NCBI GenBank assembly: GCA_001449105.1 | Contig: LNIY01000045.1 | Location: 1-64,000, forward strand | DNA from: Caulobacter vibrioides | GTDB taxonomy: Bacteria > Pseudomonadota > Alphaproteobacteria > Caulobacterales > Caulobacteraceae | Direction of reading: 5' to 3' | Length of the DNA: 64,000 bases | Shown here: in pieces, positions 1 to 42,079 of the stretch | How the letters are laid out: each line of letters starts with the position of its first letter | How positions within the stretch are numbered: the first letter of the stretch is position 1 | The notes under the pieces: model-generated | Databases searched by the model: none | What the model was told of the DNA's origin: nothing | The model's input: the letters and a program-made list of their open reading frames with translations, nothing else | Translations under genes and position numbers: made by a program

Positions 1-40
1 GGCGGCCGGACCGCCGGTCGCGTTCTGGGTCGTTACTCAC
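1..40 (-). CDS. Possible 5' end of a gene running off the left edge
   Basis: On the minus strand a GTG at position 40 opens a frame reading M-S-N-D-P-E-R-D-R-R-S-G-R that stays open to the window edge. A purine-rich GGAGGGGGG tract lies about 8 bases upstream. That tract belongs to the intergenic repeat at 47-148, so the ribosome site may be coincidental or borrowed from the repeat. Only 13 codons are visible, so no function can be given. The call rests on start, spacing and open frame alone. Confidence 0.3.
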   Translation of the reverse strand, partial: MSNDPERDRRSGR

Positions 41-39907: not shown

Positions 39908-39994
39908 GGGGGTGCAGATAGAGGCTTTGGTCCCGCTTCGCCAGCATTGGGGGTGCACGACGGGCCCGTAAGGGGGGTATTGCGACCCTCAGCT

Positions 39995-40134
39995 CGTCAT
40001 CCCGGAAAGCGCACAGCGCTTATCCGGGACCCAGGGGATTGGGTGTGGCGGTTGAGGCCTGCGCCCGCAGCACATGCGACCTCGCTGCGGTGGCCCCTGG
40101 GTCCCGGCTCTACGCTTCGCTTCGCCCGGGATGA
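39995..40134. repeat. Intergenic inverted repeat, family A copy 4
   Basis: CGTCATCCCGGA at the left end and CCCGGGATGA at the right, with inner CCGGGACCCAGGGG / CCCCTGGGTCCCGG arms. It sits directly 3' of the methionine aminopeptidase gene and upstream of yaaA (both minus strand), the only family A copy here not between convergent genes. Confidence 0.8.
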
Positions 40135-40169
40135 AGATGAGTTTTGCGGTGAGGAGGAGTGAGCAGACC

Positions 40170-40916
40170 TCACGCCAAGGTCAGCACCAGCGGTCCATTC
40201 CGGGTCGCCACCAGGGTGTGCTCGTACTGCACCGTGGCCTCGCGGCCCGGCGGGCGCAGCGTCCAGCCGTCGTCCAGTTCCTCGACCCAGTCCGCGCCCA
40301 GCGACAGGAACGGCTCGATGGTGAAGACCAGGCCCTCGGTGATCACCCGGCGGTCGCGCGGCTCGTGCCAGGTGGGGATCTCCTTGGGCGCGTCGTGCAG
40401 CGAGCGGCCGACCCCGTGGCTGGCGAGGTTGCGCACCAGGCTGTAGCCGTTCCTGCCGGCGAAGGCCTCGATCTGGCGGCCGACCTCGTTCAGGCGACCG
40501 CCCGGCCGGACGGCCCGGATGCCGGCCCACATCGCCCGTCGGCCGTCGCGGCACAGGCGTTCGATGCGCTTGGTCGTCGGCGGCACGGAAAAGCTGGCGC
40601 CGGTGTCGCCGAAATAGCCGTCCAGCTCGGCCGAGACGTCGATGTTGATCAGGTCGCCGGCCTTGATCACCGTGTCGCCGGGTATGCCGTGGGCGCAGTC
40701 GGGACCCACCGAGATGCAGGTCGCGCCGGGGAAGTCGTAGGTCAGCTCCGGCGCCGAGCGGGCGCCGTCCTGCTCCAGCAGGGCGCGGCCGATGTCGTCC
40801 AGCTCCTTGGTGGTCATGCCCGGCTCCAGCGCCGCGCCCATGGCCGTCAGCGTGCGGGCCACCAGGGCGCCTACCGCGCGCAGCCTGTCCAGCTGGTCTT
40901 CGTTGTCGATCGTCAT
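40170..40916 (-). CDS. map: Type I methionine aminopeptidase (second, ParD-linked copy type)
   Basis: A 248-residue M24 metallopeptidase. The metal ligands are intact: D-D pair in N-I-D-V-S-A-E-L-D-G-Y-F-G-D-T (about 93-107), His in A-S-H-G-V-G-R-S-L-H-D (about 168-178), Glu in F-T-I-E-P-F (about 200), Glu in V-Q-Y-E-H-T (near 235), and H-G-I-P upstream. It should remove N-terminal Met. The start overlaps the upstream ParD-like gene's stop by four bases (ATGA), an arrangement seen for accessory MetAP genes rather than the housekeeping map next to ribosomal protein genes. Confidence 0.92.
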   Translation of the reverse strand: MTIDNEDQLDRLRAVGALVARTLTAMGAALEPGMTTKELDDIGRALLEQDGARSAPELTYDFPGATCISVGPDCAHGIPGDTVIKAGDLINIDVSAELDGYFGDTGASFSVPPTTKRIERLCRDGRRAMWAGIRAVRPGGRLNEVGRQIEAFAGRNGYSLVRNLASHGVGRSLHDAPKEIPTWHEPRDRRVITEGLVFTIEPFLSLGADWVEELDDGWTLRPPGREATVQYEHTLVATRNGPLVLTLA

Positions 40917-41137
40917 GGGGCGCTGGGCGCCAGGGCGGATGTCAGGTCCGGCGCGTCGACGCCGGCCTCCTTCAGCTCGCGCGCCACCAGCTCCTGGAAG
41001 GTCAGGCCGGGGTTGAGCTCGCTGAGCATGCCGATCCTGATCCAGAACGCCGCCTGGCCGTTGATCGAACGGTAGGAGGCCTTGCTGGCCCGTCGCAGCT
41101 GCTCGTGCAGCTCGTCCTCGATGTTGACGATGCCCAT
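40913..41137 (-). CDS. ParD-like antitoxin-type protein
   Basis: A 74-residue protein. The short N-terminal beta/helix pattern (V-N-I-E-D-E-L-H-E-Q-L-R-R-A-S-K-A-S-Y-R-S-I-N-G) resembles the ParD-like ribbon-helix-helix family, expected to bind DNA as a dimer. It is translationally coupled to a methionine aminopeptidase rather than to a ParE toxin. No toxin of known type follows. Upstream of its start (ATG 41137) lies the AT-rich triple repeat at 41150-41180, a plausible self-regulation site. Confidence 0.75.
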   Translation of the reverse strand: MGIVNIEDELHEQLRRASKASYRSINGQAAFWIRIGMLSELNPGLTFQELVARELKEAGVDAPDLTSALAPSAP

Positions 41138-41149
41138 GGGATGCTCGTG

Positions 41150-41180
41150 GAATATATGAATTGCATATGAAGTATATGCT
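41150..41180. promoter_or_regulatory. AT-rich direct-repeat operator upstream of the ParD-like/map pair
   Basis: In a GC-rich context this stretch is AT-rich and carries three ATATG units starting at 41154, 41165 and 41174, spaced 11 and 9 bases apart, about one helical turn. The first two extend to ATATGAA. It begins about 13 bases before the ParD-like start codon (minus strand), as expected for a ribbon-helix-helix autoregulatory operator. The binder is inferred. Confidence 0.5.
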
Positions 41181-41293
41181 CCTCGTGGGGCGTGCAAGCG
41201 TCGCGCCTTCCGCGAACCCGGCGTTGAGCCTTCGAAGGGGGCGCGCTATCGACATCCAGGCGCCGGAGCGTCTGGCGGGATCGCGGGGGCGTC

Positions 41294-42079
41294 ATGGAAA
41301 TCTTGTATGGGAAAGCCGGCTTGCTGGCGGTCTGCGCCGGAGCCGTGGTCCTGACGCTGTCGACGGGAGCCGACGCGGCGCGGGCCCAGGACGCGGCCGC
41401 ATCCCAGCCTGCCGCGCGGTCGCCGGCCCCGCTCGCCGTCCTCGAGGCCCTGCTGTTTCCGCCAGGGCAGGAGCAGGTCGTCCGCTTCGACGAGCCGATC
41501 GTCGGCGGCGCGCGCATCCTGACGCCGACCCGGTGGGACGCGCCCGGCGTGCGCACCCCGGAATCGCACCCGATCCGGACCTTGCTGAAGGGCGACTTCT
41601 CGACCGAGGGGACGGGACTGGCCAAGGGGCGCCCGGCCAATCTCGTCCAGCTGTACGCCGCCTCCCTGGAACCCTTCTTCGGCCATCCCGACCTCGTGCT
41701 GAGGACGGCCTTCGACGCTCCTCCCGCCGCGGGCGAGCAGTTGATGGTGGTGGAGCGGCCGGACTGCATCGTCGTCGCCAGCCACAGGCAGGGCCGCATC
41801 AGCCGCATGGCCAGCGTGTCGAACGCCGAGGCTCTGGGCGCCGTGGGTGGAGAAAGCGCGGGCGACCGCGACTGCCGCACGCGCACTGGCGCCGCTGCGG
41901 TCGGCGCGTGGGGTGTCTTCCATCCGCCGGGCGCGGCGGTGGTCCAGAAGGAGGGCTGGACGCCTCCCGCCGGCCCGAGCGCCGGCCTGTTCGATCCGCC
42001 CCTGTCGGAGACCTTGCCCAGGATCGAGCCGGGCCTTTCGAGGCAGGGCTTCCACGACCTGACCGCCGGCCTTCGCTGA
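41294..42079 (+). CDS. Exported protein of unknown function
   Basis: A 261-residue protein. A signal peptide-like start (M-E-I-L-Y-G-K-A-G-L-L-A-V-C-A-G, core, ending A-R-A-Q near residue 32) leads into an Ala/Pro-rich lead and a globular part with no recognised motif. It has cysteines near 165 and 205. ATG 41294 and unbroken GC-rich codon use support coding. It is convergent with the class 3 lipase, 9 bases apart. Confidence 0.7.
   Translation: MEILYGKAGLLAVCAGAVVLTLSTGADAARAQDAAASQPAARSPAPLAVLEALLFPPGQEQVVRFDEPIVGGARILTPTRWDAPGVRTPESHPIRTLLKGDFSTEGTGLAKGRPANLVQLYAASLEPFFGHPDLVLRTAFDAPPAAGEQLMVVERPDCIVVASHRQGRISRMASVSNAEALGAVGGESAGDRDCRTRTGAAAVGAWGVFHPPGAAVVQKEGWTPPAGPSAGLFDPPLSETLPRIEPGLSRQGFHDLTAGLR

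Follow-up and report, generated by a model that had tools for sequence, protein, structure and literature searches.

Analysis of a 64,000-nt stretch of a Caulobacter vibrioides contig (hereafter the window) uncovered a two-gene unit on the minus strand, in which a 74-aa ParD-like protein (40913..41137; start ATG at 41137, stop at 40915-40913) is encoded directly ahead of a 248-aa type I methionine aminopeptidase (MetAP; 40170..40916) of the kind we call type A. The two frames share an ATGA stop/start at 40913..40916 (-4 overlap). Profile searches place the small protein in PF11903, of the ribbon-helix-helix clan (72.4 bits vs. a gathering cut-off of 23), and the enzyme in TIGR00500 (240 bits vs. 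a cut-off of 171.35, passing the equivalog threshold) and PF00557 (134.5 bits). The initial annotation, which described a 74-residue ParD-like gene overlapping a full-length MetAP by ATGA, was exact in this respect, although the range it assigned to the unit, 40913-41180, takes in the ParD-like gene and the operator but not the MetAP. All five metal ligands of the enzyme are in place (D97, D108, H171, E204, and E235 in E. coli numbering), H79 and H178 are also present, and its closest PDB match is the S. aureus MetAP 1qxw. The neighbor of the ParD-like gene is thus a MetAP and not a toxin of the ParE/RelE fold, and the layout resembles an antitoxin-first operon with a candidate operator in front.

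The host genome carries four PF00557 genes, including a housekeeping MetAP on contig C135 that is 33% identical to the window enzyme, and PF11903 occurs in it a single time. The upstream neighbor at 41294-42079 has no Pfam match; an Rfam search at gathering thresholds and PADLOC returned nothing, and PHROGs gave two weak matches, neither with a function. The interval between yaaA and the MetAP gene contains a dispersed 166-bp repeat (39985-40150), which includes a 44-nt inverted repeat and has 42 BLAST matches in the same genome including itself, the other copies being 73-88% identical.

Structure prediction for the ParD-like monomer with AlphaFold2 gave helices at residues 8-22, 25-41, and 47-57 (mean pLDDT 80) and no ribbon strand; a ribbon requires a dimer. 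A Foldseek search found no PDB match at E ≤0.001. The assignment to the ribbon-helix-helix fold therefore rests on membership of PF11903, a family listed in the Met_repress clan (PMC7354421).

The pairing proved to be as recurrent across genomes as had been supposed. Among the named genomes, of which the best 80 of 116 relatives were kept, a MetAP sequence lies downstream on the same strand in 80 of 80 loci, with the -4 overlap in 74. PF11903 matches were found in 109 of 398 Pseudomonadota genomes and yielded 115 loci, the window and genome G042 excluded, which separate for the most part into two clades of ParD-like proteins. All 46 fetched loci of clade I, to which the window protein belongs, are followed immediately by a MetAP (gap -8 to +103), and none of the 62 clade II loci has a same-strand MetAP in the stretch. 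Seven loci were assigned to neither clade: six (L241, L249-L253) gave no ParD match to our own profile, and L219 is of clade II type with a MetAP 778 nt away. In a set of 61 relatives, 11 clade I loci besides that of the window's own genome all have the MetAP and four clade II loci do not, so that clade I has a patchy distribution (12 of 61, own genome counted). Apart from the small size of the gene, nothing favors chance neighbors or an annotation artefact, a reading that is refuted by the linkage in all examined clade I matches of two genome collections and by the conserved operator described below, and to which we assign a negligible probability.

Within clade I genomes, 47 of 48 hold exactly two TIGR00500 MetAPs (E up to 1e-30) and one (G378) holds three, which makes the linked MetAP an additional copy. 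With a profile of the commonest linked form, type B, 34 genes of the 398 genomes scored no less than 394 bits, the next match reaching 336 bits; 33 of the 34 are in clade I genomes. Clustering of neighbors in the 80 named loci, which is noisy in GC-rich DNA, revealed no third conserved gene. An ABC-ATPase cluster near the pair in eight of these loci was judged to be chance, because such genes are abundant. In Brevundimonas abyssalis (L035 5001-5946), the MetAP frame is in two pieces beside an intact ParD-like gene, which may be a sequencing error. RefSeq-type annotation lists the ParD-like and MetAP genes side by side, and the pairing is therefore visible in databases, but apparently without a dedicated study in the open-access literature, where we found no paper on it among those listed; in the single article that mentions both MetAP and ribbon-helix-helix proteins, the two stand in separate ORFs.

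The AT-rich tract with three repeat units at about one-turn spacing, noted earlier upstream of the pair, was recovered as a putative operator of three CATAT half-sites on the minus strand (41178-41154), spaced by 9 and 11 bp. This three-part pattern has one mismatch-free match in the 64-kb window, against 0.04 expected from shuffles with three mismatches allowed. Comparison of 140 upstream regions, 131 of them distinct, identified a common motif close to ATATATGAAtCATATACGAATCGTATA. An earlier score, with 129 of 131 regions above the 99% null, came from a profile built on the very regions that it scored, and a held-out test takes its place, in which one part of the loci supplies the profile and the other part is scored. 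Built from 45 regions (L104 and above), the profile gave all 86 named and relative upstream regions scores over the 99% point of the resampled set; in the reverse direction, 43 of 45 exceeded it. Of the 131 regions, 103 contain TATA half-sites separated by 9-11 bp, compared with a mean of 2.3 and a largest value of 6 in 100 Markov resamplings. The motif is retained with linked MetAPs of all three types defined below (A, B, and C), with ParDs carrying either N5 or K5, and across alpha, beta, and gamma groups.

A possible -10 element (TATACT, 41171..41176, minus strand) lies inside the operator, and a weak possible -35 element (TTGCAC, 41192..41197, minus strand) precedes it by 15 nt; both are read from sequence. 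A scan of the window itself for a sigma-70 consensus promoter gave no match. Across the upstream regions, a promoter pattern of the TTG-15..18-TATA type is present in 95 of 131, vs. a mean of 10.7 and a largest value of 18 in resampled sequences, and the operator therefore probably covers the -10 element. A wider regulon was sought in the host genome with a half-operator pattern, looser than the full operator, which had seven matches compared with nine for a reversed control and so gave no indication of further targets. Autorepressors of the MetJ/Arc/CopG ribbon-helix-helix type recognize half-sites repeated in tandem, roughly a helical turn apart, close to a promoter. The predicted operator shares this arrangement, but here the regulator precedes a MetAP, and no added ligand domain is seen in its 74 aa.

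PF11903 proteins are not tied to one type of partner. The antitoxin-Zeta toxin pair Rv0367c-Rv0366c of M. tuberculosis (PMC6362051) belongs to this family, and PF11903-Zeta pairs are also reported in TASmania (PMC6504116) and in PMC5728571. A downstream ORF was found for 61 of our 66 clade II loci: 10 encode Zeta-type P-loop proteins, 45 carry a ParE-like motif, and six are without assignment; Pfam tests of five such partners returned Zeta_toxin (two) and the ParE-like toxin family PF15781 (three). The clade II genes that precede Zeta-type P-loop genes in Proteobacteria (L015, L017, L022, L023, L185, L236-L239, and L243) resemble the mycobacterial pair. The PF11903-Zeta systems share with the window unit the Pfam family, the small gene in first position, and the effector gene directly downstream, but the partner is a Zeta-type kinase and clade II lacks the MGI start. 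The PF11903-PF15781 pairs have the same gene order and overlap as the window pair, but encode a toxin of some 90 aa where the window has a MetAP. The initial statement that ParD-like proteins normally pair with ParE therefore holds for ParE-like partners in clade II but is incomplete, since PF11903 has three partner classes here. Because its clade II relatives mostly precede genes of toxin type, the clade I MetAP occupies the toxin slot: the unit has a ribbon-helix-helix-regulated, toxin-antitoxin-like layout with a protein-maturation enzyme in that slot.

Such a layout could mean a type II toxin-antitoxin system with a new class of toxin, in which the MetAP would trim the wrong N-termini and the ParD-like protein would neutralize it by binding. 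The Zeta-type or ParE-like genes found in the same slot in clade II, the antitoxin-first order, the overlap, the patchy spread, and the presence on plasmids all speak for it, as does the remodeled pocket of type B. Yet the catalytic residues are kept in the linked MetAPs: metal ligands, H79, and H178 are intact in all of them except one type B gene with Asn at position 108 (G013; rows L019 and L255). The linked enzymes thus have the family, the metal ligands, and the catalytic histidines in common with housekeeping type I MetAPs (TIGR00500), and differ in being a second copy behind a ParD-like gene and in a P1 pocket that is changed in type B and different in type A.

In order to compare these pockets, we used the P1-subsite residues of E. 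coli MetAP given in Table 2 of PMC10724148 (Cys59, Tyr62, Tyr65, Cys70, Phe177, and Trp221); in the row counts that follow, some loci appear more than once because they were fetched repeatedly. Type B shows S59, Q62, Y/F65, N70, and M177 in 117 of 117 rows (116 labeled as such plus L010, a type B linked gene labeled solo), and the remaining 81 solo rows that are not type A lack Q62, N70, and M177 altogether. Because housekeeping enzymes vary at position 59, type B is distinguished by 62, 70, and 177 alone; in this commonest form, three P1-pocket residues conserved in housekeeping enzymes are replaced. Whether linked or solo, type A enzymes have P59, T62, F65, C70, and L177 (20/20 rows). Type C has N59, Y62, Y177, and A or G at position 99 (17/17 rows), and mostly C70, and its pocket resembles that of some housekeeping enzymes save for the A/G at 99; L309 and L310, labeled B, are type C genes that repeat L110 and L105. 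Since type C resembles housekeeping enzymes and type A has the same pocket also when solo, an altered pocket is not a general feature of the unit. The window enzyme, with T62, C70, and L177, does not match the P1 set of the examined Pseudomonadota housekeeping MetAPs (Y62, C70, F/Y177); this is no argument against MetAP activity, because in an alignment the S. aureus MetAP also differs from that of E. coli. The net charge of the 204-235 stretch was discarded as a marker (medians -6 for A, -2 for B, -1 for C, and 0 for housekeeping enzymes), the type B range of -6 to 4 overlapping the other types.

The MetAPs of types A and B are only 32-39% identical, but the ParDs of type A loci nest within a group of B-linked ParDs (95-97) in a ParD tree built from few columns by a quick method, with many open forks, a midpoint root, and long branches among the Zeta-linked rows. 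Nearly the same ParD thus appears, from these comparisons, to carry very different MetAPs, which counts against neutralization by binding. Independent recruitment of the A, B, and C enzymes, considered from the MetAP tree, was dropped because a single clade remained acceptable in AU tests both for A+B (p 0.65) and for B+C with L306 (p 0.54).

MetAPs of the linked types also occur alone. Solo type A enzymes with the same pocket signature are encoded in four genomes without a PF11903 match (G002, G030, G032, and G035, the last with the gene at a contig end), and in G451 a fifth has no ParD in the 3.7 kb fetched, the only stretch covered. The A-linked Caulobacter loci L024-L028 have the order FAD oxidase, 102-aa protein, lipase-like protein, ParD, MetAP, YaaA, and SDR, and the FAD oxidase/102-aa pair lies near ParD-MetAP in five of six A-linked loci of at least 6.9 kb, being absent in L257 (G027). 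In G030 and G032, the solo MetAP adjoins the FAD oxidase and 102-aa genes; the other three solo loci do not have this arrangement. No operator was found upstream of the solo genes in L244, L246, and L247 (scores near -31). These observations suggest that the ParD-like gene and operator were inserted before a resident MetAP; clean loss of ParD in the solo lines is a possible alternative. G337, which has no PF11903 match in its genome, encodes an intact type B MetAP with its catalytic residues kept (90% identity to the G401 enzyme). Just before this gene, at about 1400-1510 of L333 (G337:C1:1599300-1602600), is a weak remnant resembling the operator, whose score of 5.7 exceeds the 99% null point of 2.4 but not the highest null value of 15.6; it marks a probable natural loss of the ParD-like gene.

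Two plasmids depart from the usual layout. The MetAP and ParD-like genes of the Sulfitobacter plasmid pDSM110093_b (L323 2032-3207) are divergent around a 114-bp region with the operator, and the Aureimonas plasmid pAU20b (L327 2440-3155) has a clade I ParD with operator followed by a short unrelated ORF, with no annotated MetAP within 2.5 kb of the ParD-like gene. Exchanged partners, solo copies, and divergent order fit regulation better than neutralization. The earlier proposal of the MetAP as a toxin or antitoxin partner thus gains from the toxin-type genes in the clade II slot, but is weakened by the solo MetAPs of types A and B, the differing partners, and the divergent plasmid genes, and we consider it improbable. 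Its other suggestion, a regulated N-terminal-processing module, holds up as far as anatomy goes: a conserved operator near a promoter, near-obligate pairing, and a MetAP that is an extra copy.

Together, these results make a regulatory cassette of two genes the likely reading of the unit, with a repressor from an antitoxin family dedicated to a spare MetAP whose substrate pocket is altered in most relatives, and make a classical toxin-antitoxin pair less likely. The computed basis consists of the anatomy, the conservation of pair and operator, the extra copy, the pocket changes, the differing MetAPs, the solo copies, and one divergent order; type II toxin-antitoxin gene order and overlap, together with the toxin-type partners of clade II, count against this reading and leave some probability for direct ParD-MetAP binding. 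In the proposed mechanism, the ParD-like protein would bind the TATA-rich operator with its three parts, located at the promoter of the unit, and would repress both its own gene and the overlapping spare MetAP gene, until some signal lifts repression and the cell makes a second MetAP alongside the housekeeping enzyme. A type B enzyme might then keep working under inhibition of the housekeeping MetAP or take other N-termini; either role would fit the replacement of three P1-pocket residues (62, 70, and 177).

A special form of this repressor model would make the repressor's own Met-Gly start the signal. Removal of Met1 would allow the ribbon to bind the operator; where excision fails, Met1 would stay, repression would be lost, and the spare MetAP, which may be insensitive to inhibitors, would be made, with the repressor acting as a sensor of MetAP activity. 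A set of 130 distinct clade I proteins shows no variation at M1, G2, H11, R15, R23, S24, N26, Q28, A29, W32, G36, and E40, and all 140 rows start with [MVL]-G, GTG and TTG starts being counted as M (the window protein starts MGIVNI). Given the alternation of side chains along a strand, Met1, Ile3, and Asn/Lys5 would be expected on the DNA-facing side, and such sensing would explain why different MetAPs can be the partner. However, clade II proteins, with toxin-type partners, also mostly have cleavable starts (Met-Ala/Ser/Pro/Thr), so that the MetAP-linked clade stands apart only in its invariant Gly; the argument from Gly2 to N-terminal sensing is weakened accordingly, and for this reason we hold the sensor idea to be unlikely. 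An extension of it, a mobile, inducible target-bypass cassette in which a Met-Gly-sensing repressor controls an exchangeable spare MetAP with a changed pocket, stepping in upon failure or inhibition of the housekeeping enzyme, strikes us as equally doubtful.

The spare MetAP may instead have another substrate, for example oxidized or non-Met N-termini, with the operon answering oxidative or nutritional stress. This is compatible with the repressor model and we rate it as slightly less doubtful, though still unlikely. Type B carries Ser59, Gln62, Asn70, and Met177 at positions that form the E. coli P1 subsite (PMC10724148), and on a Pantoea sp. At-9b plasmid (L332 2501-4135), msrA, encoding methionine sulfoxide reductase, lies 76 bp behind the MetAP gene on the same strand. 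The msrA case is a single one, however, and the 80 named loci have no third conserved gene.

MetAP is essential in many bacteria and is a drug target. A widespread and partly plasmid-borne spare MetAP that follows a repressor-like gene of its own, with a changed pocket in type B, could offer a ready bypass of MetAP inhibitors. To our knowledge, no dedicated control of N-terminal methionine excision was known earlier, and this could be the first. An antitoxin family has apparently been turned to plain regulation here, an enzyme taking the place of the toxin, and finding 'ParD-like' in an annotation is no guarantee that a toxin lies beside the gene.

The two-gene unit is real, widespread, and mobile. 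A relative of the ParD-like protein is present in 161 plasmid records, of which 40 were among the matches listed (30 of 190 in a further list). Phage records contained no match, and E. coli complete genomes gave no megablast match to the pair of a Klebsiella plasmid. Thirteen of 15 plasmid regions examined have an annotated MetAP beside the ParD-like gene, one of them in the divergent order; the other two are the Aureimonas region without a MetAP and a Vibrio record that is unannotated there, with a MetAP adjacent by coordinates. The Klebsiella plasmid, a conjugative IncFII element, carries the pair near IS26, and an Acinetobacter plasmid with a ParD-like relative also bears blaOXA-58.
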